From contig JARUPZ010000021.1 of NCBI GenBank assembly GCA_031213475.1, forward strand, positions 7,819,420 to 7,883,419: a stretch of 64,000 bases of DNA, read 5' to 3'. Source of the stretch: Nereocystis luetkeana. Its lineage: Eukaryota; Sar; Phaeophyceae; Laminariales; Laminariaceae. Below the pieces are notes generated by a model, which did no database searches, was not told the origin of the DNA, and was given only the letters and a program-made list of their open reading frames with translations. Positions 1 through 53,863 of the stretch are shown here, in pieces (the first letter of the stretch is position 1; each line of letters begins with the position of its first letter). The position numbers and the translations under genes are program-made.

Positions 1-2072
1 GCAAGTATAACTTACCAGATTTACCGATGGTGTACCGAGTGGTGCCATCGATGTGGAATCAATGCACATCGCGTCGCAGGACCAGACTTGACATCTTAAT
101 CTGCAGCAGATGACACGAAAGACTGCTAACGGAACGAAGGATGGGTTTTCGTCAAAACCTGGTGGAGCTGAATGGTAAAGCAGTGAACGTTGGTCTACCA
201 GACACGGACCAGACTGCTCGGTAGGCACTTCATAGGCTTCGTCCGTGTTCGAGACGAAGGGCATCAATGCTCCCCTTTTGGTATAAATGCGTGGATACGG
301 GTAGCGAAGACGTCGTCGAGCCCCAACGAAATTCGCCGCCATGCCACTATATACATTTCACTTCTCCGCATGTTCAGCATTGGCAGTGTCGCAGCAAGGG
401 AAATATTTTCCCATACCGTTGCTGCAAACTGCCCCTGGTACTCCTGGTGGGCTGTCAAGGGTTCAAGGGACTGAGCGACGGCGCCGGTGTGGAGCCGTTA
501 CATCAAGATGCTCTAGGAGCCAACTGGTTTACAGCAATAAAAGACTGCCATCGACGCATCCTGCGGTGGGGGTAGACCGAGACTCTTTTAGGCTGTCCAC
601 ACTGGGGAAGACTCTACCTCGCTTCAAACTGGACCTTGGGGGCAAAATTTGCATGCCCAGCCAGATATACAATACCACTGGCTACACGTAAGCATAGAGG
701 ACTGTTGATGCTGTGAAGTGGACGTCAGCGACAGTTGAGCGCCCTGCCTCTCAAAATACATCCAGGCCCCCTAACTGTAGTACTTCGTATACCGTACGTG
801 TAGCGTGGGGCACTCGGCTTCTCCGATCTCCGCAGGACATCACGCGCTAGCTAAGAAATCGAAATAAAGCACCGCATTACAGCTAAAGCATATACATACC
901 AGGTACGGAATGCGTTTGAACTATCGCTGGGCGTACAGTGCATTCCAACCACTACTTCGCACGGCCGACGCGAATGGCATAGGTTGATAGTTGGTTAATA
1001 CGATGAAGCTGTATACGGCGCAAACTGTAGCCATCGTTCCGTCAAAGGTGCCTCAGTCCTAATACTTTCATTCACACCCGCGTCGTTTTATCGCACGCAA
1101 GGGACGGCGATAATTGGAACAAAAGTTTTGTCCGGAACACATATCACGTCCGCCATGCCACTTGCTACTGATTATAGTGTTGTATTCAAAATGTCACTCA
1201 GGTACGTTTTGACACACAAGCTGCGTAGACCGACCTCCCGAATAAGTGCAAGCAATACACAAACAATCTGCAACCTCAACTGACAGGTAGTCAGTCCTGG
1301 AAACAACAGAACGCTACGAGTAAGCGACATACTGTCGTCGTTGATGATGCACAGCGCCACCGGGATGTCGCCGCAATAAACGACCATGTCCCTATGTTTG
1401 CTAGTTGAGCAGAAGCAAGGCCAGCATGAGAAAAGGTGAGAAACAAAGGGCGGAATTGGGGGTCGAGTAGCACACCTGGTACGTTTTCTTGTCAGATGTT
1501 TGTAAACCTGGTGGTGGGTGCGATGTTAACGCGGAGGGGGTTGTGGCTGGCGCACGATACCAGAGAAGACACGCTCCCGGAACTCCTATGGTTTTATGCG
1601 GCACGTTCTGTTATATGGTGTGAGCTCCGCTCCGAATGGGACAAGTAACGTCCTATCTCAAAGGTGCCGGTTGTCAACGTAGTTGGAGGGGACGAAGAGT
1701 AAATGAAGACAATGCTCGATGCATTACGTGGATGTAATCTCTGAGTGAGAACTGCGACAACCGTAAGTACTACGACGTCGTAGGGCCATAGCTCCCAGTG
1801 CATTTCCGGTGAGACGTTTCCGACATGCCGCCCACAATATCACATCATACGATAGGTCAATGGCCGCGCACACGATTTGCTTTTAAGACTACGATCGGCT
1901 GTGTACCACGTATAGGTGAGAGGTAGCACAGCTCGTTGTGACGCCTGAAGCACGCAAAGGAGTCATACAGTTCAAGACAGGGTTGGGCCGACCTCGTTAT
2001 TTCTGTTTATTGTGGCCTATGTTGTTAGTGCTAGGCATACCACTTTATTACCTTTTCAGCAGTAGCAGCTGG
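1..2072. other. Unassigned DNA, no gene recognised
   Basis: Only short open frames without recognisable domains occur here, on both strands. I see no clear exon with flanking splice sites. One exact TACCAGGTA motif lies at 897-905. Confidence 0.5.
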
Positions 2073-2757
2073 ACCCGACCAAGGGAATGCGGAGAGGGGG
2101 GGGGCAAACGGAAGGAGAAAGACGGGAACTGCGGTGGACGAAACTAGGAAGGAAATGGCAGACGGGGTTCAAGCCACCCCTGGCCGACTAGAATGTAGAA
2201 CATGCCTATACTACTCCTGGCACCAACTGGTGCAGCTGGTTCGATCGTGGTCTTCTTTTTTCTTTTTTTTCTTTTCTCTTCGTTCGTGCGCTGACCTTCT
2301 GTGGTTTGAAGTTTATTATTCGTTTTCCTTTCTTTGATTGGCAAGCCTTATTAATAAACTCGTGGGGCGTGGGTTGATGACGAGCCTGCTTTGCTTGTTT
2401 CCTATTGTCTGACGCCGAGGGGAAGGACACAATATACGAATGGAACGCACCGAGGGGAAGGACACAATATACGAATGGAACGCAGGAGGGAGACGGCAGA
2501 CAAGGTAGCATGTTGCCGGGCAGACTGGCAGGGAGAACCTGGCTATGCTACTTGTACCAAAAACTGCTTCCGCTACCTGGAGGGTGCTTTGTGCTTCCGT
2601 TTGTTCGGTTTTTTTCCCTAGTTCCTAATCTTACTCTGTTTACAAGTAGGGTTGTTTTCTACTTCTTCTTCTTCTTCTTCTCCCAGCTCGTTATTTTCAA
2701 GTGTCGCCCACATCCCGTACGGGGGGCGGCACGACAGCTAAAGCGGGGCGCGACGAT
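2073..2757 (+). mobile_element. LINE 3' remnant (5'-truncated)
   Basis: The stretch starting with GACCCGACCAAGGGAATGCGG-like sequence matches the end of the LINE reading frame and the 3' untranslated region seen again at about 31,640-32,300. Shared blocks include the GGAAGGARATGGCAGAC stretch, the TACCACAAGCTGCTGCCGCC-like block and a G-run followed by GCACGACAG. Only the last few codons and the 3' region remain. It meets an oppositely oriented LINE at about 2,757. It carries an internal tandem duplication at 2,413-2,483. Confidence 0.75.
2413..2483. repeat. 36-bp tandem duplication
   Basis: Two nearly perfect copies of a 36-bp unit containing GAGGGGAAGGACACAATATA lie head to tail inside the LINE remnant. 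The other LINE copies in the window have a single unit at most, so the duplication is local. Confidence 0.85.
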
Positions 2758-22423: not shown

Positions 22424-23800
22424 ATGCCGAGTGGAACCCCAGTGGACGGGTCGTCCGAGATGGACGACCTGACCATTCTCTTGAGACAGCTGGCGGCGGA
22501 CAGGAGAGAAGACCAAGATCGACGCGAGAGCGACCGAGAGCTGCGACGTCAAGACGATGAGCGACTGAAGACGCAGATGTTCGAGGAGATGGATCGCATA
22601 CCTGCTGCGGTTAGTGAGGTTGCGCCTGGTGTTACTGGTGAGCGGGTCTGAACCGCTACCAGTGCAGGGGAAGTATGGGGAGTCAGCTCCAGTGGGAGTT
22701 TGCCAGGTCTTGGCGCGGCAATAGGCCTGCGAAGGAGTGGTGCGAGTAGCAGCGTAGATGGTCATAAGGCTGAAGTTGGTTCTCGCGAATTTGGGAGTTT
22801 GAAGCAGTCGGTTCCAAAATTCAGTGGAAAGTCGGAAGATGTTCTTTTGTGGAAGGAGAACTTCGAAGTGTTTACTTCCATGGTTGGGTGCATGTCGGCG
22901 TTCCTCGTAGATCATGATATGATGATTGGCGACGTTACGAAGAACACTCAATATTCTCTCTCGCAAGGGTTCAGTGAGGAACATGTCAAGACAGCTAGAG
23001 TAGCTTGGATTTTCCTGACTGAGAGCGTTGTGAACCGTGATCTGCTAGGTAGATTGTTCACAACAAATTCAACTAGTGCTGGCTGGAGAATGCTGTGTGA
23101 TTGGTTCATGCCCAAGACCATGGGTGAACAGGTCGAGTGGTCGGTAGCGTTCGACTCCGCAAAAATGAAGAAAGGAGAAGAGCCCATGAAGTACTATGGT
23201 CGGATTGACAAGATTAGGAGTGCTCGCGGGTGCTAGGTGTGGTCAAGTCGGTAGCAGACGTCAACCGCAAGATCATCATGACCCTCACATAAGACTACGA
23301 AATACAGGAACGTACTATCTTGTAACGTGAGGATGTCACTCGAGCGGAGATCGAGAGCATCATCCGACAGCGGTACTTGCGCCTTTCCGCGCCGAAGGGT
23401 AAAGACGTGGGCCAGGCTCTATTGACGATTGGAGCTGCTCGAGGTGGTCGTGCAGGTAGGGGTAGGCATAGAAGTAACGGTAAGCAGAGAGGTGGAAGTG
23501 ACACCGCAAGTTAAAACAGTCAGGGTAGCAGTAGCAGTAACCCCCAAGCCCCAACACATAACCCCCCCCTCAGCGTTCGACAAAGTTAAAGGAAAACGCA
23601 TTCGTTGCTTGGAACCCGGGCACACCTGGTCCCAGTGCAAGGATTGCATCCCCCCTGTACCAGACCATACATCAGGCGGAGGTGCGCAAGGCCAGAACAA
23701 AGGCGGTGAGACTATGTGTTGTCTTGCGAAGTGCGTGCTTGGTGCTAACGATGACTTGTGTAATGAGGAACGTCGTGATTGCATAGATAGTTGAGAAGTG
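22424..23800 (+). pseudogene. Copia gag region, fossil
   Basis: It contains the gag core-like segment VPKFSGKSEDVLLWKENFE and MGEQVEWSVAFDSAKMKKGEE. Downstream lies a CCHC-like segment, RCLEPGHTWSQC, at about 23.6 kb. It is typical of copia gag (the UBN2 type) and is broken. Confidence 0.8.
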
Positions 23801-23995: not shown

Positions 23996-25332
23996 CTCAC
24001 ATTAATTCACAATTCAATGCAGTCCGTGGTCGCAGGACAGGCTCCAATAACTCTGGAGTGGAAGAAATACCTCAAGTAAAAACAGAGGCAAAAAAACAAA
24101 AAACAAGCATACGCACTCCACCACTGCGGACACCAGGGAAGCAAAAAGGAGACTATTAATAGGAGACAAAAACATATAAAAAGAAGATGAAGCTAAGCAA
24201 AACAAAAACAAAAACAAAACAAAAACAGACGCAGATAGCAAAACGCAAAAAAAAAGGCAAAACGGACCATACTAACAAAGACACAAAGAGGTACAAACGG
24301 GAATGAAAGAAAAATGAAAAAAAAGAAGGGACAAAAAAGCGATAATCACGGGCGGGGGGGAAAGAAAATACCAAAGGCAGGCACTGGAGCATACAGACAC
24401 GCAAAGTTGCCCAGATGGCACCATGCTAGTTACTTGGGTCCCAAAGAAAGGAGTGCATCATGACGATGATGGCCATAACCAGGCTTCAGTCTGTTGGGCA
24501 GACCGCCTCCCCTCCCCCCCCCCGCCATTCCCCCTCGTCCCCCTTCCGCCCCCCCCTCTTCCCTGCCATTCTGCACACTCGCGTTGGCGTCAACGGCTGT
24601 GGTCGTGGTTGCAGCTATTCTATGCCGTTCTGCCGATGCCTCCTTCTCATCTGTATGCCATTTCCGCATGAAGGCCTCCGCCCCTTCCTCGACCCGTTGG
24701 AACCATCTGCCGGCTTTCTGTGCTGCCTCGCGCCACCCTTCGAGCTTGATGCCGAACTCCTTGAGGTCCTCCTCAAGGTACCTCATCCAGTCCCACTCCT
24801 GTCCTCCGGAGTAACCCTTACCCCCAACCATCTCCCCAAACATCACCCTCTTCGGCAGACGCTCCTCTCCCATTCGTGTCACAAAGCCCGCAAACAAGAG
24901 CCTACGTCTGCGTACCGTCGTCTCGACGCTTTCAGATGTTGTCCTGAGAAGCGCGCTAGCATAGGATAGAATGTGGTCTTCGCGCTTTCGTTTTCGCCAC
25001 CCGATGCATCGGAGGAGCATCTTGTGGTGGACCTCCCGTAGCCTACCGTAATCATTCTTGCTCGGGCTCCAAGTAACGCAACCGTAGAGCAACGTTTCGA
25101 TCACCTCGGCTCTCAGCATTTGCACCTTCAGGCGTAGGCGCACACCCGGGCGGTCATACATTTCCATCTTATACCGTCCGAAGCATGCCCATGCCCTCTG
25201 GAGTCGACGCGTTACCTCGACACTTCTGCCCGTCCAATCTGCGCTGATAGCCCCGCCCAGATACACAAACTCGGTCGTTTGTTTGTACACTTGGCCGGCG
25301 GCGGTGACGGTGAACGGCACGTTCCCCCCATC
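23920..25332 (-). mobile_element. LINE (5'-truncated) nested in the copia element
   Basis: The minus strand encodes an intact C-terminal LINE ORF2 segment of 296 codons (25,320-24,430). It has TEFVYLGGAIS, VTRRLQRAWACFGRYKMEMYD, ETLLYGCVTWS, HHKMLLRCIGWRKRKREDH and RRRRLLFAGFVTRMGEERLP. This is the post-catalytic region common at the end of ORF2 in many non-LTR elements. A 3' region of about 400 bp follows. It ends in a long (CAA)n tail, seen as (TTG)n on the plus strand. TAGGGT at 23,914-23,919 and 25,333-25,338 looks like the target duplication. The frame is still open, so this is probably the youngest of the three nested layers. Confidence 0.88.
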
Positions 25333-25515
25333 TAGGGTACGGAACGCTGACTGTTGTATTCCCAGGAGATCTGACTGTCAAGCTGTTGGATGTGGCCTAC
25401 GTGCCGGAAATCGCATTTAACTTGTTTTCGCTGATGGCTGCGCACAAACAGGGAGTATCATTTACGACTGAGGAGAAAAACTTATGTATTTCTCTTTTCA
25501 ATGGGAGGTTGAGGT

Positions 25516-26319
25516 TTGAGAGTGATGGGTCTAGTTAGTCCGGATTCCCTTACAGGATACCTGGTAGAGCCAGACAACGGTTATATGCCGTTCCCCCTTG
25601 AAACCCCCAACCCTCCCGAGACTTGTGTTGAATATGGTTGCGATTTTCCCTTTGCTTTTCCCGTGCTTGCACCCGGTAGTACCGCGTCTACTGAGACTAG
25701 TGTAGACATCAACGTTTTTCACTGCGTGCAAGGTCACTCGAATGAACTACTCTTGCGAGAGACCACGAAATCACTCGGTATAGAACTGGTAGGAAAACGT
25801 AAGCCCTGTACGGGATGCTCTATGGCGAAAGGCTACCGCAAGCCTATCCCTAGCAGCACTGAGTCACGCTCGACAGAGAGGTTGGGCAGAGTTTTTGTTG
25901 ACCTCAGCGGACCTAAGAGAACACCTTCCCTGACGGGTGCGCGGTATGTCATGCTTGTGAAGGATGACTACTCTCGCCACGCGTGGGCGTATTTTCTGAA
26001 GCATAAATCGGATTCAGGAGACGCATTTAGGAAGTTTTTGGCTGACGAGCGCGCCGACAAAGTACCCTCGAAAGTTGATATAGTAAGGTCTGATAACGGG
26101 GGGGAGTTTTTCGGTGGTGAGTTTGGAGAGGTGTGCAAACAGTATTTCATCAAGCAGGAATCCCCCAATGCCGATAGACCTGAGCAGAACGGTGTAGTAA
26201 AAAGAGCGCTAGGTATCATCCAGAACGCGGAACTCGCCGCGTGCATTCAAGCGCCCATCATATTTCCTCACATTCATTTGCCGCCGACTAAATCCTCGAA
26301 GGCGGAAGCGGTGCGTTGA
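25516..26319 (+). pseudogene. Copia integrase region, fossil
   Basis: An open stretch of 267 codons carries the HHCC-type segment (HCVQGHSNELLL...KPCTGCSMAKGYR), VFVDLSGPK, KDDYSRHAWAYFLKHK, RSDNGGEFFG and PEQNGVVKRA. The D, D and E positions of the retroviral-type integrase core can be recognised. The element as a whole is broken. Confidence 0.88.
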
Positions 26320-30824: not shown

Positions 30825-30904
30825 GGAGGTATTGAATTTTACACGCGATATGTCTACCTGTAAAAACATTGCCCAGAATTCTCGATTCTCGAGTTATATA
30901 ACTG
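30825..30904 (+). repeat. ~360-bp dispersed repeat, 3' fragment
   Basis: It contains GTATTGAATTTTxCACG, GTCTACCTGT and AATTCTCGAGTTATAxAAC, matching the ends of the copies at 32,622 and 32,983. It lies between a SINE head and a LINE 5' end. Confidence 0.7.
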
Positions 30905-32620
30905 TACGCTGACCTCTCGCTCGAAATCGACCGACGGATCCGCCTCATGCGAGCATGCCTCAAACGGTTCGGCCCGGAGTTGTATGATAGGACGACCGCC
31001 CCCCTTAGCCTTAAAGTCCAAATGCTGAAGGCCGAGGTGATTGAGACCCTGCTGTACGGGTGTGTGACGTGGACCCTCAGAGCGGAACACTTTGCCAAGC
31101 TTCGAACGGCTCACCACCAAGTCCTGTTGCGAGTCATTGGCTTCCAGCGCCGACTTCATACTGACCATGCCACCCTCTCGTACGCGAAGGCCCTCAAGAT
31201 GACACGTTGCGAGAGCATCGAAACGACCATTCGTAAACGGCGGCTCTTCTTTGCGGGGGGCGTGGCACGGCAAAGCAAGGAGCGATTACCCAATCGGGTA
31301 ATGCTCGGGATGATAGCTGGTGGGGAGAACCCGAGACCAGGCGGACAGTGTAAGACTTGGCATAGATGCATAGTCGAAGACCTTAGGGAGTTCCGAGCCA
31401 CCGAAGGGTCAACGGAAGTTGCCCCCTTGGTGTTTGGAGTTGAGACCGCGTTGTGGTCCACTGCAGCCAAAAAGGTGGGGAAGTGGTACCGGGGGATCCT
31501 TGAAGCAGCCGAACGGTTCATGGTGAGGTGGCACGAGGCTGAGGCTGAGATGAGTAGGCAGCGCCGCGCATCCGCCGTGGATGGTGCCCAAAGGAACGGG
31601 GGGGGAGGGGGCAACAGGAGAAGTGGCATAAAGCCCGACCGAGGGAATGCGGAGAGGGGGGGGAACAGGAGGGGTAGAAGGGAAACGGCGGTAGACGAAA
31701 GTAGGAAGGAGATGGCAGACAGGGTAGCAAGGCACCAAGTCGACTAGGAAGTAGAATATGACCATACTACTAGTGCTACCAACTGGTGCAGCTGGCTCGA
31801 ACGTGGTCTTCCCTTGTCTTCTCTTTTAGTTTTGTTTTTTTTTCGTTCTTGCGCTGACTCTCCGTGATTTTCATTTCATTTTTTCTCTTCCTCTTCCTTT
31901 TCTGATTGATAAGCCGTACTCAAGGAGCCGTGTGGCGTGGTTGGAAGACGAACCTGCTCTGCTCGGCTCGTATTGTCTGACGCCAAGGGGCTGGGCATAG
32001 TTGACGAACGCAGGGCGGAGACGGCAGTCTGGGTAGCAAGGTACCAGGCGGATTAGCGGGGAGAACCTGGCTATACTACTCGTACCACAAGCTGCTGCCG
32101 CCACCTGGAAGGTGCTTTGAGCTTTGGTCTGCCTGTTATTTCCCCTTTGTTATTATTCCTTGTTACTTTCTCCTTGGTTCTTTGTCTTACTCTGTTCACA
32201 AGCAGCGGTGTTTTTTGTTATTTCTTTTTTTTTCCAACTCGTTCTTTTTCAAGTCTTGGCCACCTCGCCTGCGGGGGGGGGGGCACGACAGATTGTTTCT
32301 CTTAGATTTTGCTTTCATTTTTCTTCTTTTTCTTTTTCGATTTGTCTACCTTGTTTTTGTTTTCTCTTTGATTGTTTCTTTTCGTTTCACTATTTCATAG
32401 ATTGCGTATGTCGTGCCTGTCGTATCTAGTATGATGACATGGCTTTGCATTGCCCACTGCAGTTCACACTGCACACGTGGCAACGTAGTATCTCTGTGGC
32501 GTAGCTTTGTGACCACAGAACTGGTATCTCTTCTAGGATTGAAGAATCGGCACGGACACTGGTTGTGCCGGATGTCGACGGGTAGAAAGAACGGTTTACT
32601 GTGAAGAACACACACACACA
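30905..32620 (+). mobile_element. LINE, 5'-truncated, with open C-terminal frame and complete 3' end
   Basis: An open frame from about 30,908 to 31,747 encodes DLSLEIDRRIRLMRACLKRF, ETLLYGCVTWTL, HHQVLLRVIGFQRR and RKRRLFFAGGVARQSKERLP. This is homologous to the C-terminal part of ORF2 in the LINE at 24.4-25.3 kb. A 3' region of about 870 bp follows with a G-run/GCACGACAG block and TCGTATCTAGTATGATGACA. The terminal block GGATTGAAGAATCGGCACGG ends at (AC)n near 32,602-32,620. It is the reference copy for the 3' ends at 2.1, 37.6, 38.8 and 42.5 kb. The dinucleotide tail differs from the (CAA)n tail of the other LINE, so these are two families. Confidence 0.87.

Positions 32621-45320: not shown

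Positions 45321-45381
<61 letters not shown>
45321..45381. repeat. (TC)30 microsatellite just upstream of the start codon
   Basis: About thirty uninterrupted CT units end 31 bp before the ATG of the cysteine-rich gene. Its place suggests the promoter or 5' leader. A pyrimidine tract could also affect splicing or transcription, but that is inference. Confidence 0.93.
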
Positions 45382-45412: not shown

Positions 45413-45473
45413 ATGAAATTCGGATTCGTGCTGCTGGGGCTGGTGGCGCTTACGTCAATTCATGTTTCGAGCG
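45413..45473 (+). CDS. Exon 1: signal peptide
   Basis: ATG in context AAAACCATGAAA starts a 20-codon hydrophobic leader. It ends with one base of the next codon before the donor GTGAGC (phase 1). Confidence 0.82.
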
Positions 45474-48084
45474 GTGAGCACTCGTTTGATGCGTTTTGAA
45501 GAGTAGTGCACTGTTACCCGAGGCCATAATAAACAGGACCAAATATTGTCTATGCAAGTAGGTAAATAATTTTTTATTTTTTTGTACGGTAGGTACTAAA
45601 CGCTATGGTGCCCCGTAGTAGTTGTTACCGAAAAATCCCGCGAGGGGGCGGTGTGGAAAAATCGCCGGTGAAGTCGTTAGGTCAATGTCATGGTTCCTAT
45701 GGCCGGTGACTTTAACTTACTTATGACGCTACTGCAAAACAATATTCTCTCTCTATAGATGGAGTCTTGCAGGGCTATTTTGTAGGGGAGTGCCTCTGTA
45801 ACCCGCGGGTTGCAATTAAGTTGCGTATTTCCTTGCTGACTACGCCCAGAGGCTCTCTTTAAGCCCTTACACAACCTCTACCGCTTGTCTCTGTCCCTCC
45901 CGCCGAATCGTTACCTCAGGTAGCTGCACAACATTGCAGGGTGATTTCATCGTTTGAGTACGAAATACTGAGTCGGTTGAACTCACCGATTTCGAGTCGT
46001 GTTGACTCAGCATTCCAAAGTCCAGTCTCAACCAAACAAATGGCGAAACTCACAGCTGTCGTGCTGAATTGAATCTGTTAATTACTTTCCCCCATGCAGC
46101 TATCCGATGGCGTCCTTCCGTAAGGCATGGGTAGGGGGTAGAGGTGGTGCATACTCTTCGGGTAATAGTGTGTGCCCTTCCGAATATTCAGCTAGGGTAA
46201 CCGTATTCATTCCAACCCGATGTCGATAAATTGGCGCTCCCTTACTCCAACTTTGAAGGCGCAAGCAACATATTCACTGATGAATAAGGGAGGAAGACGG
46301 AATTGATTGTGGCGGGCTTACTGCGCATGCATATCCGTACCTGGGATGTAAAGGGTGTATACATATTCCATCTGTTGCCAGCACGGAACGTGGTGTAATC
46401 CTTGGCATGCATCTAGTCTGAGAGGAGTTGTTCTATTCTTTCCAATATATATTATGTCTATTAATAGTCAATAAAAAAGCCAACGTTTTGGTGAAATAAT
46501 TAGTACTACTTCATGCACCCTCTCAGTAATGGTGGACACAGCAAGAAACGCGCGTGCGGCGGCACATCAGATATAGAGCACCTTTTTCTTCCTTTTGCAA
46601 CGCTTGTTGAAACCTACCGTCAAATAGACAAGGAGCACTTTCTCATCGTGTTCAAATCAAAATGTTTTTGATTGCAGTTTTCTAACTACTAATGTCGGTC
46701 GTCTAGCTTGGAACGTCAGGTTGTTCTTGCGCACTGCGAGAGTAGAGGGCTTCGCAACATAATCGGAAAAAAAGTGCTACCACGCGCACTTCGCGCTATC
46801 GTGTTCAGCCTATTGCAGCTCCAATCGCGCTACCGCCAACTACAACCGGCGACGTCCGCTCCCACTCTCCCCGCCATGCTTGTTCCTGTTGCGCTGAAGG
46901 CCAATGCAGCAACGGTTTGGTGGGAGTTGACAATGACGACGTCTGCTGCATTGCGGCCTGCGGCACGTGCGGAGGGAGGGGTTGCGCCGGACGATCCGGC
47001 GGCGGGGTGAGTTCGTGTCTGTTGTAGACGCGTGCGCCACTGCACAGCAGTAAGAAGTAGTTACCGGCAACGCCATTTAACCGGCTACTTTGAGAGTTAT
47101 TTACATATCGAATGAAGGCAGCCGTGAGAATACGAAATACGATTCTCCACTGGTTGTACGAGCTACAGCACTCGCAGTTTGACGTTGTGGACACAACGTT
47201 TTGTGCTCAGCCCCCTACATGGCCTATATAGACAAGTCTGATAAAAGACATTATTCGCTCTCATGCTCTCTTGAATTGGACAGGACAACTGCTGCTCCAG
47301 CCGGATCCGGGACAGTGGAGTAATGTGCAGCGCCAGCGGCGCGGCGCCGTGCATCATGGATGATATCGTCGTAGGTGCGTCGTAGTACACCAGCGACAAC
47401 CACTGTTGTTGCGGCTGCGCTTTTCGTGATATCTGTAGGAACATCTTTGGGATCTGTAGGAACATCTTTGGGGTTTGTTTATTTACCTTATCACCCCGGC
47501 GACCGCACTAGCCGACAGGAACACTGGCATGATGTCCAACGACGCATACGTCCTGCGGGTATCTTTTTGACTATACTCGAGAAAACCTACATTGAACGCT
47601 TTGCAGCTTTCATGGATGAAGTGCTCCTTCTGTTTTTCGGCTTGCTCTTCTTGCTGCTTCTGTCTTCCGTGGCAACATGGCTGGAATTTATGTATGTGCT
47701 AACAGGCGGTGACGTACGTAGCTTCATTACCTTACTGCCGATTCGATGCGTGCTTGTGTTGAGCAGACAGCGACTGCAGCAACGGCGTCCCGGGAGTCGA
47801 CGATGGCGAAGTCTGCTGCGCTGCTAGCTGTGGCACTTGTGGAGGAAGTGGTTGCTCCAGACGACCGGGCGGAGGGGTCAGTTGGTTTCTGTGAAAAACG
47901 CGTTCTACCGTTACCGTTGGGAAATGAAATATGCCATCTCAAGAGGGTTGGTTGAGCTCGTACCAATTGAGTTCTATACCTTCCTCGACTAACGAACTTT
48001 AGAAATAATTGCAGTTATGAGCTAACTTCCGAGTTGGTCAAGGGAAAGTTTGGTTCTGCGTCAACCGTGGTTTTGGGATGTTCG

Positions 48085-48122
<38 letters not shown>

Positions 48123-51100
48123 CATCCCATTCATTATCTTCGCACATCTTGTATGAAAAACATCCAATCGACCTGTAAATTACAACAAAGTAAGTGCTGA
48201 GCTCGAGCGAAGCAAAGCTGTTCTACGAGAAGGTGGTACGACCCAAGTGTTTTGAATAATCTTTTGATCTTATACGTTACTCTGGGGTGTATTTTAAGTT
48301 TCTTCGTATTGGATTTCGAGCTGAACTTTGACTTTTCACGTGGTGGACACAAACGTGTTCTGCTCAGCCCCCTATATCGCCTACATTGACAAGTCTGATA
48401 AAAGGCATTATTCGCTCTCACCCTCTCTTGAATTGGACAGGACAACTGCTGCGCCAGCCGGATCCGGGACAGTGAAGTAATGTGCAGCGCCAGCGCCGTG
48501 GCGCCGTGCATCATGGATGATATCGTTGTAGGTGCGTCGTGGTACTCCAGCGACTACCACCGTTGTTGCGGCTGCGCTTTTCGTGATATCTGTAGGAACA
48601 TCTTTGGGGTTTGTTTATTTATCTTATCACCGCGGGGGCCGCACTAACCGACAGGAACACTGGCATGATGTCCAATGACACATACGTCCTGCGGGTATCT
48701 ATCTGACTATACTCGAGAAAACCTACATCGAACGCTTTGCAGCTTTCATGGATTCTGTGTTCCTTCGGTTTTTCGGCTTGCTCTTCTTGCTGCTTCTGTC
48801 TTCCGTGGCAACATGGCTGGAATTTATGTATGTGCTAACAGGCGGTGACGTACGTAGCTTCATTACCTTACCGCCGATTCGATGCGTACGTTTGTTGAGC
48901 AGACAGCGACTGCAGCAACGGCGTCCCGGGAGTCGACGATGGCGAAGTCTGCTGCGCTGCTAGCTGTGGCACTTGTGGAGGAAGTGGTTGCTCCAGACGA
49001 CCGGGCGGAGGGGTCAGTTGGTTTCTGTGAAAAACGCGTTCTACCGTTAACGTTAGGAAATGAAATATGCCATCTCAAGAGGGTTGGTTGAGCTCGTACC
49101 AATTTAGTTCTATACCTTCCTCGACTAACGAACTATAGAAATAAATGCACTTTGTAGGCCCTATATACCTGCATGAGTTGGTCAAAGAAGACTTGGTTCT
49201 GCGTCAACCGTGGTTTTGGGACGTTCTTAGTATGAAAAAAACATCCCATCGACCAGTAAATTACGACAGAAGTATGTGCTGAGCTCGAGCGAAGCAAAGC
49301 TGTTCTACGAGTAGGTGGTACGAACCACCTGGTACCAGGTTATTGTTGTTTCTTCACGGTGTATTTCGAGCCGAGCTTTGACTTTTGCTGGAGTTATCGT
49401 CCGCTGTCCGCTCCGATGATGCCGGGTCTCAGTTGCCCTTTAGTATACACCGGTCTGACGGAAGCATGCTTCGCCCGCCCCATCGCTTTTGTACACAGGA
49501 CAACTGCTGCTCCGGCGCAATCGAGGACAGTGGCGATCTATGCAGCGTCACCCAGGCGGCGCCGTGCATAATGGACGTAGATGCAGGTATGTCTCGATAA
49601 ACTCTCGTCTAGGTCGGCGGCTACGACCCCTGTAGGCAAGTCACCGCTTTCACGGAAATTGTCTGTATCTTTTCGGCGGTTTTTCCTACACATTGTTTTT
49701 TTTTTGTGCACATAGGAACGTATCTGCTGAATGCCCCGTGAGCGGTAAGAAGTAGCGCGTCAAACATAAACCATGATACGACGAGCATGAACGCTCTTTC
49801 TCTGTCATCGATGCCCTTTCTGTGATAAAGGTTGCCGTAAGGGGTGTACCCCAGTTATCGCGACCGACTTTCGTCCAACCGCGCGGACGGCCCTGTACAT
49901 GTAAAAATGTACATGAATAATCGTGTTAGTAGACGCCAATCAACAGAACATTTAGTACTCGGTGCGTATCACGGAGCCTGCACATTTGAGGTATTACGGG
50001 AGACGATAGGTAATATAGGGCCTATGATATTTAAAAACACCTATACCTCGTATATTTAACACTTTTTTACTAATACAACAATATTTGGTCCTATTAACTA
50101 TGGACCCCCGTAATAGGTCTAATTTGATCGTGTTGACACATACGGTATTGGGGTTTATTTACTTGTGGGAGGTTTAGTTTGTTTCGACGCACGGGTTCCC
50201 TACCTGGGAAGCTGTTTGGTTCCTCTGTTACCCCGTGTACGTTTTACGTGGATATTTTGGTGTACCCGGAGGTAGAGTCGAATGACCCCGTGTAAAGTTG
50301 ATCAGGGTCGGCGTCCTAGTTAAACACAGTTCTCGATTTGCTTTCTTTCACCACATGTAGTTTTCAGCTGAGCTCGTGCATCGAGCGGCCGACGAGGTAA
50401 AATACTACGTGTCTCCGGATTTCCGCTATCGTTCCAACCTTTCCCCCCCCCCTCTTGATACCCCGCAGCCCCTACCTGCACCAACGGTCTGCCCGGTGTC
50501 CAATCGGGCTCCATCTGTTGCGAAGCTCAGTGCGAGACCTGCGGAGGAGCCGGTTGCGGCTCGCGCCCCGGTGGCGAGGTTCGTTCGTTGCTGTTGCTTT
50601 CATTTCTAGCCCCCTGTTCGCAGGCGGCAACTATCGTAGCATGTAGTTTAGGTTTTCCCCGACCTAAGAAACCGGGGGAGGCCTTGGGAGAACCAACGTT
50701 CTGTTCGTCTTGTGTCTGGCGGGAGAACGTACCCTGCTCGGCGTCTCTACGTTGGCGGGTCTGACGAGCAGCGTGATATCCTACAGCTTATTAGGAACTT
50801 TATATGGACGAATGGTTTACGCAGGAGACAAACGGGTATATTCCTAAAAACAATTTACTGGGAAGTGGTGAATTTTATTCCAAGTTTGCGTAATTGCCCT
50901 GTTCGTGAACTCGGCTTTGTATCGTTGAGCGGAAACATTCTATATATATGCGAAGTGCTACCAGTACATTAGTGAAGTACGCAAAACCTCTCTTTCCCAC
51001 ATTGTCAGGACCGTTTCGAGGACTTGGTAATATGAAAGTGCTTTTGTTCTTCGGGAAACTGATGTGGTTCGGCCACAGCAGTGTTCGTTTGTACTCTGCC

Positions 51101-53863
51101 CTACTGACGAAAGCATTCCCTACCACTTTCCCCGGTCAACAGGACGGCTGCTGCACATCCAACATCATGGGTAATGGCATGAACTGCACCACCACTATGG
51201 CCGCGCCGTGCATCGTCGACGGTGAGGCTCTTATCATGTTCAGATCGTTAGCCAAGCCAACACTCACAACATCCTTGTGTACAGGTTTCCTTAGTTCGGC
51301 TTACGCTCGCCACCTCGACATTCAGTTGTTCATAGCTCTTTTCTGAATGTGGCGGAGTACCTTCAAGTGTTTTACGATATCTAGATGAAGCGTTGTTTTT
51401 TTAACAAACTGCTACAGGGGCTGTCGGGGTCGTCAACCCATTAACTATGCAAAATCGTCGGACGAGACGCGTGCGGAACCAACCATAACCTATTTCGGCA
51501 GATGCTAAGTTGTTTCCCGAGCGACGAAACCCTCCGATTCAGGATCGTCGGAATGCCATTCTTGTTCAGACAGTGTTTTTCGTATTGCGTTAATTGTGAG
51601 GACGTGACAGTGGTCATCCTGTAGTAGCAGTCAACACGTTCCTCCGTCCCTTTGGGTGGAGCGTAGTTAGTGGGGAGAGACACTCGGAAATGAAATCGCG
51701 AACATTGTTCCGTAGCATGCGCCATTGGCCTAGTCCTTGTTTCCTATGTTCTGCCGATGCCTTCGATAGGCCAAGCAAGGTAACAGCGTCCGTTTAAGAC
51801 ATCATCTAACTCTGTTCTTGGGCGAGCATAAGAGTTCTTGATGTCGTAAGCCTCGGACGACATAGGTGTTACCCCCTAACAGAAACGCACACGTGTCCCG
51901 CGAAAGTGCGAGGAGTGTGGACGGGTTACGGGCTTGCGACACCGATGACTGACGTGAAGATCGGTTGAACTTCTCGCAGTCGTACACATCTAGATATTTA
52001 TTCTACCCTGTCTGGGTGTCTAGGGAATTGGCTAGAGGTCTACCTATAAACCATACGCCAAAAACAACGGCATACCTGGTACATATTATTGGTTACTTCG
52101 AAAGCACGCAGGATTTCCAGTACATTTTCGCGTTCGGTCCTTCGCCAAACATGGAGGGTGCCGGCTATTGTGGTTGTGCACACGCTCGTGCGATTCCAGA
52201 TATGGCGTGGTGACCCCGTATATATTTCTGCCGTCGCTACATGTGTATAATCTTGTCGAAACAGGAGGGTTCCCGGATGTGCCTGTGGCGCTTTGCAGCA
52301 ACGGTGTGGTTGGCGTGGAAAATGGCGGCTTCTGCTGCGAGGCCGGTTGCGGGACATGCGGAGGAAGCGGATGCTCCTCGCGCCCCGGAGGAGCGGTGCG
52401 TTCATAGATGTTGCAATATTTTGTGTCCGAGGCCTCCCGTTCGAGGAGCTATTATACCGCACCAAATCACTGACTTTGAAAAAATTCGAAGTCAAACCGG
52501 ATTAAAAAGTGATGGCCTATATATATATATTAGATATCCTAAAGTATATCTTTGCGAAACGACATAAATCCGACGAACGTGGTCCCAGGAGCCACGTCAC
52601 TCTAAAAGCATTTATTTCCATATTCTGCTTTGTGTACCTCTCTATCGCTGCGCCCGCCATCTTTCGCCCTCGATACGGGCAACCATAGATGTGATACCTT
52701 GGCTTTGCTGACTAGTTGTGACTTAAGAGTCGATTGCTCATGTGGGACTGAATATTCAATGTCGTTGGAAGCATACATATTTGCGGTTGATAATGTTTCC
52801 TATGTATTCCTGATCTTTGGGGTTGCTCAGCAAGCGAAAACATTGGTCTTTCGTTTCCTGTATAACTTTTTTTTTTTTTTTTGCAACAATATAGGTCCCG
52901 TCGAGGGGACGAGCCCCAAAAATGATCGGTTGACCCGCCTTAGCGTGTCAAGTATATCAGCCCCTTTCTGTGTTGCGTACAGCAGTAATTGCGTACAGCG
53001 TCATTTTCTCTTCGCCGAAAGTGGACAATATACTCGCACGATCGAATGAATAGACCACATTTAACATATTCGGCATGCTACGTTCCATATTGGTTGATAT
53101 TGACGTTCAACCATTGACTCCTTCTACCACAGGGTGAACAAATTGCGATCGTTTAGGTCAGACCGTTTCTGACAGGCTGGCATCGTACCCACAGCACGTA
53201 CCAATATGCTCCTAGAGATATAAGAGGCATTGGCCTCATTGTGAATGAATACAATCGATTCTTTTATATGCATTTTCGGGCTTTGTGGCAAAATCTCCCG
53301 GTTGAGTTTTAACATCCAAAACAGGCGGGAGGCTCGCCAGGACCTGCAGAAAGGCGCTGCGTACGACAACCGCTGGTGCCTCTTAGAGCCCCAAATATTG
53401 TTATCGCCGGTAGGGCCCCCTTTGCTATTGCAGCTGAGATGGCCATCCAATGCGCTTTCAACCGATCTCTGTTATCCTGGAGGTTCTGTCAATTTACCTG
53501 ACCTCACCTTGTTCGTGGATATGTATGAATGTACCTGGCGTACAAGCTCGCATTAGTTGTTGAACCCTCTTAGGACTTGTCTCTAAACCAAGACTGTATC
53601 CCTGAAAGGTTCAAGTCAGGGGTTGGTGTTACACGTTCAAGTTCTCTAGCGAAAAGCCTCAGACTAGTATAACTTTAGGCGTTGCCCGCACCGTACCTCC
53701 AGCAGGAACACGCTCGATGACCTCGCCCCCCGACACTGTCTGGTCTGACAAAAAATACACTCCTCGCCCCTGCTGCGTGTTGTAGGACGCTTGCTGCACC
53801 AGCCGGATCGAAGACAGTCAAGTGATGTGCGACGATACGATGATGGCGCCTTGCATCGTCTAA
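45413..53863 (+). CDS. Secreted five-module cysteine-rich protein, 11 exons
   Basis: Spliced product of about 378 residues. Residues 1-20 (MKFGFVLLGLVAL..., then small residues) form a signal peptide with a short basic start and a hydrophobic core. Five two-part modules follow. Part A reads C-x12-CC-x3-C-x2-C-x4-C (CSNG..GV, CC, CGTCGG, RPGG). Part B reads CC-x10-C-x7-C (DNCC, M/L-C, APCI). Each module has ten cysteines in constant spacing, and module 1 has three more at its start, giving 53 cysteines. This suggests disulphide-stabilised extracellular units. All ten introns are GT-AG. A-to-B introns are phase 0 and B-to-A introns are phase 1, and every junction keeps the frame. Module sequences of this kind I recall from heterokont algae, function unknown; binding or cell-wall roles are guesses. 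No other domain is seen. Exon limits rest on motif, frame and splice-site agreement, and additional undetected exons are possible. Confidence 0.85.
46819..47006 (+). CDS. Exon 2: module 1 part A
   Basis: Acceptor TATTGCAG. The exon opens with a Pro/Thr-rich linker (PIALPPTTTGDV) and a short extra Cys cluster (ACSCCAEGQ). The A motif follows (CSNGLVGVDNDDVCC, then CGTCGGRGC). Donor GTGAGT, phase 0. Confidence 0.85.
47284..47374 (+). CDS. Exon 3: module 1 part B
   Basis: Acceptor TTGGACAG. DNCCSSRIRDSGVMC and AAPCIMDD follow. Donor GTGCGT, phase 1. It belongs to the first copy of the tandem duplication. Confidence 0.88.
47767..47876 (+). CDS. Exon 4: module 2 part A
   Basis: Acceptor GAGCAG (a GAG three bases upstream would also keep the frame). 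CSNGVPGVDDGEVCC and CGTCGGSGC follow. Donor GTCAGT, phase 0. It is identical in sequence to exon 6. Confidence 0.85.
48091..48148 (-). mobile_element. SINE tail fragment in intron 4
   Basis: A T-run of about 30 and the terminal SINE sequence TCATCCCATTCATTATCTTC, then GCACATC, are flanked by TTGTAT on both sides (48,085-48,090 and 48,149-48,154). The sibling intron at about 49,223-49,236 has no insertion. It is a strongly 5'-truncated copy. Confidence 0.82.
48441..48531 (+). CDS. Exon 5: module 2 part B
   Basis: Acceptor TTGGACAG. DNCCASRIRDSEVMC and VAPCIMDD follow. Donor GTGCGT, phase 1. It differs from exon 3 at five bases, four of which change the residue. Confidence 0.88.
48903..49012 (+). 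CDS. Exon 6: module 3 part A
   Basis: Same sequence as exon 4 over all 110 bases, with the same acceptor and donor. Confidence 0.85.
49499..49586 (+). CDS. Exon 7: module 3 part B
   Basis: Acceptor TACACAG. DNCCSGAIEDSGDLC and AAPCIMDVDA follow. Donor GTATGT, phase 1. Confidence 0.87.
50469..50578 (+). CDS. Exon 8: module 4 part A
   Basis: A pyrimidine-rich acceptor (CCCCCCCTC...CCGCAG). CTNGLPGVQSGSICC, then CETCGGAGC and RPGGE follow. Donor GTTCGT, phase 0. Confidence 0.87.
51143..51221 (+). CDS. Exon 9: module 4 part B
   Basis: Acceptor GTCAACAG. DGCCTSNIMGNGMNC and AAPCIVD follow. Donor GTGAGG, phase 1. Confidence 0.87.
52265..52395 (+). CDS. Exon 10: module 5 part A
   Basis: Acceptor GAAACAG. 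A short linker (GGFPDVPVAL) is followed by CSNGVVGVENGGFCC and CGTCGGSGC. Donor GTGCGT, phase 0. Confidence 0.87.
53786..53863 (+). CDS. Exon 11: module 5 part B and stop
   Basis: Acceptor GTTGTAG. DACCTSRIEDSQVMC and MAPCIV are followed by TAA. After the stop the same frame stays open for eleven codons to a GT at phase 1 (53,898), the position where the other B exons have their donor. The stop may therefore have shortened a once longer gene. Confidence 0.8.
   Translation, partial: DACCTSRIEDSQVMCDDTMMAPCIV

Follow-up and report, generated by a model that had tools for sequence, protein, structure and literature searches.

A ten-cysteine module repeated in a kelp gene family and carried at the C-terminus of predicted polysaccharide-acting enzymes of Myxococcota

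We have analyzed a gene of the brown alga Nereocystis luetkeana whose predicted product is little more than a signal peptide and five copies of a cysteine-rich module. The gene lies within a 64,000-nucleotide stretch of DNA (the window; contig C21, positions 7819420-7883419). The question raised by this locus is what such a protein might do. Our preferred reading, a possible one that we place somewhat short of an even chance, is that the product would be a multivalent extracellular polysaccharide-binding protein.

A gene of five two-exon modules

The gene occupies window positions 45413-53863 on the forward strand and comprises 11 exons separated by 10 GT-AG introns. The joined exons give 1056 coding bases, or 351 amino acids, with a single stop at the end and no internal stops. 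The features of the gene are as follows.

45413..45473 (+) exon 1, signal peptide (MKFGFVLLGLVALTSIHVSS), judged by eye; ends in phase 1
46900..47006 (+) exon A1, first half of module 1; phase 1 to 0; 5' boundary from the conserved acceptor AG
47284..47374 (+) exon B1, second half of module 1; phase 0 to 1; motif and open-frame model
47767..47876 (+) exon A2; NAGNAG-like acceptor, start uncertain by about a codon
48441..48531 (+) exon B2; motif and open-frame model
48903..49012 (+) exon A3; acceptor context as in A2
49499..49586 (+) exon B3; motif and open-frame model
50469..50578 (+) exon A4; motif and open-frame model
51143..51221 (+) exon B4; motif and open-frame model
52265..52395 (+) exon A5; motif and open-frame model
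53786..53863 (+) exon B5 with the stop codon; motif and open-frame model

Splicing of the ten introns is predicted from conservation among paralogues. Exon A1 most likely starts at 46900 (AG/GCCAATGC), since this acceptor AG is kept in all seven copies read. A longer A1 exon, which in this gene would give a 378-residue model, is excluded in copies 7929 and 7970 by in-frame stops that lie 8 and 6 codons, respectively, ahead of the module cysteine. The terminal B exon ends in a stop codon in all four of the other copies read to that end. The signal exon ends in phase 1, A exons run from phase 1 to 0 and B exons from phase 0 to 1; because of these phases both the A+B unit (1-1) and the B+A unit (0-0) are symmetric. 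A long CT repeat is found at window 45322-45381 (+), a short way upstream of the start codon. CT stretches before the start are also long in copies 7810188 and 7929355, short in 8138949 and absent from 7727226 and 8019709.

The A motif (C-x12-CC-x3-C-x2-C-x4-C) occurs five times between 46905 and 53854 (+), alternating with five B motifs (CC-x10-C-x7-C). The strict A pattern has only these 5 matches in the window, and 60 simulated 64-kb sequences (order-1 Markov) contain none. For the strict B pattern there are 13, of which 5 are module parts and 8 fall inside two poly-Cys homopolymer runs; the simulated mean is 0.05 per sequence (n=60). A complete module is 59 residues long, with ten cysteines that we infer to pair in what are presumably five disulphides. 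All 50 cysteines of the protein are module cysteines, and the mature protein is acidic (pI 4.05). The first-pass annotation had described a multi-exon gene of alternating A and B parts with consistent splice sites and frame, encoding a secreted, disulphide-rich repeat protein. The 351-residue open model bears out the gene structure, and the signal peptide and the 50 module cysteines agree with the description of the product, which is predicted to be secreted. AlphaFold models were unusable, both for a single module (12-row alignment, pLDDT 47) and for a full-length bacterial protein that carries the module (L040; 2-row alignment, pLDDT 33).

Pfam contained no family matching the 378-residue model (E up to 10) or the 351-residue model (0.01); families without a match to this protein include CBM1, CBM18/hevein, WSC and EsV-1-7. 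A search with 20 modules gave a single chance match at 0.18. There was no module match above chance in NCBIfam, PHROGs or PDB, where profile searches were empty, and no relative among viral contigs, phages or plasmids. Judged by titles and the starts of abstracts, no paper on the module was found in open-licence PMC, and the matches listed for module peptide strings in its text were only DNA-like strings. Among eukaryotes, the search covered the window's own genome. We rate the module as undescribed and disulphide-rich, with habits that resemble those of a carbohydrate-binding module.

Elsewhere in the window, 25513-26316 (+) is a retroelement remnant with an integrase core (Pfam rve, E 6.4e-8, just above the cut-off). 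Three further ORFs, at 22652-23233 (+), 24433-25377 (-) and 30902-31744 (+), are mobile-element-like by eye and have no Pfam match.

Unsplit relatives in the alga and in Myxococcota

A second type of module gene is present in the same genome. On contigs C22, C20 and C11 all 13 modules read sit in one exon, without the A/B intron, and in each of the four last exons read a stretch rich in Ser, Thr and Pro comes after the module and leads to a hydrophobic end. Proteins of this type are probably held at the surface, like surface-anchored proteins, the anchoring being judged by eye. The one locus read on C1 is of the split type.

The first-pass annotation pointed to similar modules in heterokont proteins; relatives were found in bacteria as well. 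Two short peptide patterns, scanned against a genome collection (84,980 species, one genome each), matched at three loci, each of them in Myxococcota; the scan misses relatives that lack the exact patterns, and restriction to this phylum does not follow from it. With profiles, the module was detected in 16 of the 377 genomes searched for the phylum; searches of two single classes found it in 3 of 147 and 9 of 317 genomes, respectively, with overlap among the three sets. After removal of repeats and of three weak partial matches (G286, G390 and G736) there are 21 bacterial matches, including the divergent G722, which matches model positions 12-57 only. The ten cysteines have the same order in bacterial and algal modules. 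Outside the cysteines, 14 to 24 of 45-47 columns are identical in all 12 bacterial-algal pairs, versus about 5-6 in shuffles, and a bacterial module used as query against the 465-Mb algal genome finds exon A3 of this gene as its best match (E 1.4e-8). The homology of algal and bacterial modules thus extends past the spacing of cysteines. In a module tree of 59 columns, in which many forks are open, the bacterial group has support 83/28. The bacterial module is unsplit, occurs once per protein and is usually borne on an enzyme, whereas this algal protein has five modules, each with a phase-0 intron, and no enzyme. Because bacterial modules are also unsplit, the split type has probably acquired its A/B intron.

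In 19 of the 21 bacterial matches the module terminates a predicted polysaccharide-acting enzyme. Seventeen modules form the C-terminal end of proteins of a single beta-helix family: 13 of these proteins were aligned, L099 and L100 were placed in the family by eye, L051 was recognised from a C-terminal stub only, and L055 is cut by a contig edge but matched in the beta-helix family search. Two modules are C-terminal to GH16 (PF00722, E 4.4e-15 and 4.5e-16). Of the other two, L098 joins the module to a second region without assigned identity, and L102 holds a divergent module nearly alone in a short protein. The latter (1492-2127, minus strand) looks secreted, and its single module contains Trp and Tyr, unlike most others. 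The BT3328 hyaluronan-lyase model matches all 13 beta-helix proteins scanned (best 4.2e-15); because these scores are far below the model cut-off of 1100 bits, any assignment of activity, even as broadly as polysaccharide lyase or hydrolase, is a guess. The best PDB match of the beta-helix is a putative pectin lyase (5.1e-5, over a 63-residue stretch).

The beta-helix is held by 22 of the 377 genomes, 14 with the module and 8 without. The module-bearing proteins are close relatives of the query (at least 49% identity), while the module-less ones are distant (31-42%); no swap between near orthologues was seen among the 22 genomes. Six of the eight module-less proteins end at or near the end of the beta-helix; in the remaining two that position is taken by CBM96 (E 1.7e-20 and 1.8e-41), in one case together with an F5/8 type C domain. 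The GH16 relatives, three of three, are without the module. A beta-helix query found no match in the algal genome, in a search that could miss an intron-rich gene, and so gave no indication that the complete enzyme is present in the alga; nor was an enzyme seen adjoining the modules in the algal loci read.

Proposed roles: polysaccharide binding or wall structure

It is the position of the homologue, as an accessory tail on myxobacterial polysaccharide-acting enzymes, that suggests that the module may bind wall polysaccharide and may thus represent a binding module of a novel type. Each module would be a small domain of carbohydrate-binding type, and a run of five would bind with avidity to the chains of cell wall or mucilage, or to glycans of microbial surfaces. 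The unsplit relatives, with their stalk and hydrophobic tail, would hold the same module at the cell surface.

Carbohydrate-binding modules are non-catalytic domains of carbohydrate-active enzymes, are optional and exchangeable, and commonly, although not universally, present an aromatic or basic ligand surface. The bacterial modules agree with the first of these features, in the 19 of 21 matches where enzyme activity is predicted. Optional and exchangeable use is seen in the wider beta-helix family only, where the argument is limited because the module-less homologues are all distant. The third feature is absent. Aromatic residues are the usual sugar platform of carbohydrate-binding modules, but in a set of 47 modules, grouped as algal split, algal unsplit and bacterial, W, Y and F each stay below 1% of residues in every group. 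The mean net charge is -3.0 in algal split modules, -6.8 in algal unsplit modules and +1.0, or near neutral, in bacterial modules. The set of 47 includes 18 split modules from six copies; copy 7970 is left out, as are several middle modules, the last module of 7929 (which is incomplete) and, repeats excepted, the bacterial modules of the two class-level searches. The near-absence of aromatics and the acidity count against polysaccharide binding: the acidic algal modules are ill-suited to binding alginate or fucoidan directly, except through calcium bridges.

The main alternative, which we consider rather unlikely, is a structural role in the matrix. The protein would be a stiff rod, rich in disulphides and resistant to proteases, that does not itself bind sugar but fills the wall or mucilage, or cross-links it, by contacts between proteins; the bacterial tail would then be a stabilising or surface-attachment cap. 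The only invariant columns across the 47 modules are Cys, Gly and Pro (Ile is present in 45 of 47), so few candidate ligand residues are conserved. The confinement of all cysteines to the modules and the Ser/Thr/Pro-rich stalks of the surface-type relatives also fit a structural role. However, the bacterial tail follows two unrelated enzyme families, which is usual for substrate-binding modules, and two distant beta-helix homologues carry CBM96 just where this tail lies. CBM96 (PF24517) shares with the bacterial module its place after the beta-helix and differs from it in kind: it has a 164-position Pfam model with no sequence relation seen to the module and, according to PMC9971899, is a beta-sandwich family founded on an alginate-binding domain.

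If the module does bind polysaccharide, it would represent an undescribed binding family present both in a seaweed and on bacterial polysaccharide-acting enzymes, and a large tandem gene array without a known domain would acquire its first testable function. The domain would then be unsplit in bacteria and intron-split in the alga, where it is still duplicated in frame in either rotation. The architecture points to an assay, of one 59-residue domain against a few glycans.

Paralogues, family growth and selection

The signal-peptide exon is matched at at least 17 places on C21, this gene included (40 of 157 candidates scored), and the module exons form at least 19 gene-like clusters at 7.12-8.15 Mb and one at 8.51 Mb, on both strands. 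Clusters were grouped manually from match coordinates and only the best candidates were scored, so these counts are lower bounds. Five copies read to both ends contain 5, 4, 4, 3 and 3 modules, the last of them having a divergent second B.

Growth of the family has occurred at more than one scale. Within the gene there is a tandem duplication of 1.16 kb, whose copies are about 90% identical in two aligned pieces.

47178..48245 (+) first copy, carrying B1 and A2; aligned with the second copy
48334..49327 (+) second copy, carrying B2 and A3; unit B+A, phase 0-0

Three loci on C21 (L006, L007 and L008, at about 8.02, 8.065 and 8.11 Mb) are 44.5 kb apart and 99.5-99.9% identical over 3.1 kb, which reflects either a tandem triplication of very recent date or an artefact of assembly. 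In the module tree the penultimate modules of four copies cluster (support 99/98), the last modules of five copies cluster weakly (88/78), and the first modules are unresolved by position. Where the tree resolves, modules group by position rather than by gene; whole-gene duplication therefore seems dominant, with module order kept. The family seems, from these groupings, to have grown mainly by whole-gene duplication with occasional internal duplication, and not by shuffling. Of the marks of an exon-shuffled gene, the phase-symmetric unit is present and reassortment of repeats between genes is not seen. The expansion proposed in the first-pass annotation is thus evident in the 44.5-kb-spaced copies and in the intragenic duplication; of the two processes that it names as allowed by phase-symmetric modules, duplication is supported here and shuffling is not. 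At a different location, a module gene is repeated three times at 24-kb spacing (C2:17649069, 17673049 and 17697044), with a fourth copy on a small contig (C142:46582).

Selection on the coding sequence was estimated from seven copies. All 21 copy pairs have dN/dS between 0.32 and 0.61, which indicates purifying selection. Excluded from this set were B sequences that are decayed or, in the case of the second B of copy 8138, divergent, as well as three whole copies: the one on the minus strand at 7.50 Mb and the nearly identical pair at 8.06 and 8.11 Mb. Within this gene, nine of ten module pairs fall at 0.19-0.57, and the recently duplicated pair 2-3 has a value of 1.30, on little change. The ten Cys columns contain no non-synonymous change, a result somewhat biased because the similarity search that identified the copies favours conserved motifs; synonymous TGC/TGT changes are present in these columns (pS 0.21). 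In the non-Cys columns pN/pS is 0.62. Splice sites are intact in all exons examined (25 A donors, 22 B acceptors). Judged by its paralogues, conserved splice sites, dN/dS and fixed Cys columns, the gene looks functional.

A role in defence or recognition is clearly unlikely as an explanation in its own right, although defence by glycan recognition would be compatible with the binding reading. On this view the tandem paralogues would agglutinate microbes or bind glycans of microbial or non-self origin, and conflict would drive the array to diversify. The approximately 20 gene-like clusters, the recent 44.5-kb triplication, the 3 to 5 modules per completely read copy, the variable non-Cys columns and the elevated ratio of pair 2-3 (one of ten within-gene pairs) are all in keeping with such a role, but dN/dS is below 1 in every copy pair and module order is largely kept, not reassorted. 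A parallel is found in the LRR-ROCO genes of brown algae. In PMC11378527, brown-alga LRR genes with one exon per repeat are described as candidate immune receptors, and the LRR-ROCO genes resemble the module gene in having exon-encoded repeats of fixed phase that permit in-frame duplication. They differ from it in being a GTPase family with one 72-bp phase-2 exon per repeat and a reportedly strong shuffling; the module gene has two exons per repeat, phases 1-0-1 and an order that is largely kept.

A more elaborate proposal, which we hold to be improbable, is that the module founds a new carbohydrate-binding family, which brown algae and myxobacteria share by ancient horizontal transfer, and that its amplification in the alga produced soluble five-fold proteins that act as a decoy shield or agglutinin, occupying the same wall sites against module-docked bacterial enzymes that may attack algal polysaccharides. 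Finally, a decaying repeat array without functional product is scarcely credible: decayed B remnants do occur in two other copies (7931650 and 7972718) and isolated B fragments at 7884494 and 7908824, but the module is not confined to decayed copies, given the unchanged Cys columns, the preserved donors and acceptors, the dN/dS values below 1 and the open frame of this gene.

EsV-1-7 proteins form another cysteine-rich repeat family that is expanded in brown algae, and its very large expansion in this genome agrees with a brown-algal, and hence heterokont, origin. The likeness to the present family lies in cysteine-rich repeats expanded in this genome, and the difference in a 35-position repeat model (PF19114) that has no Pfam match in this protein. 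Matches to PF19114 are spread over many contigs of the genome; the family cut-off was exceeded by all 150 candidates scored, which were the best of the 1718 first-look candidates.
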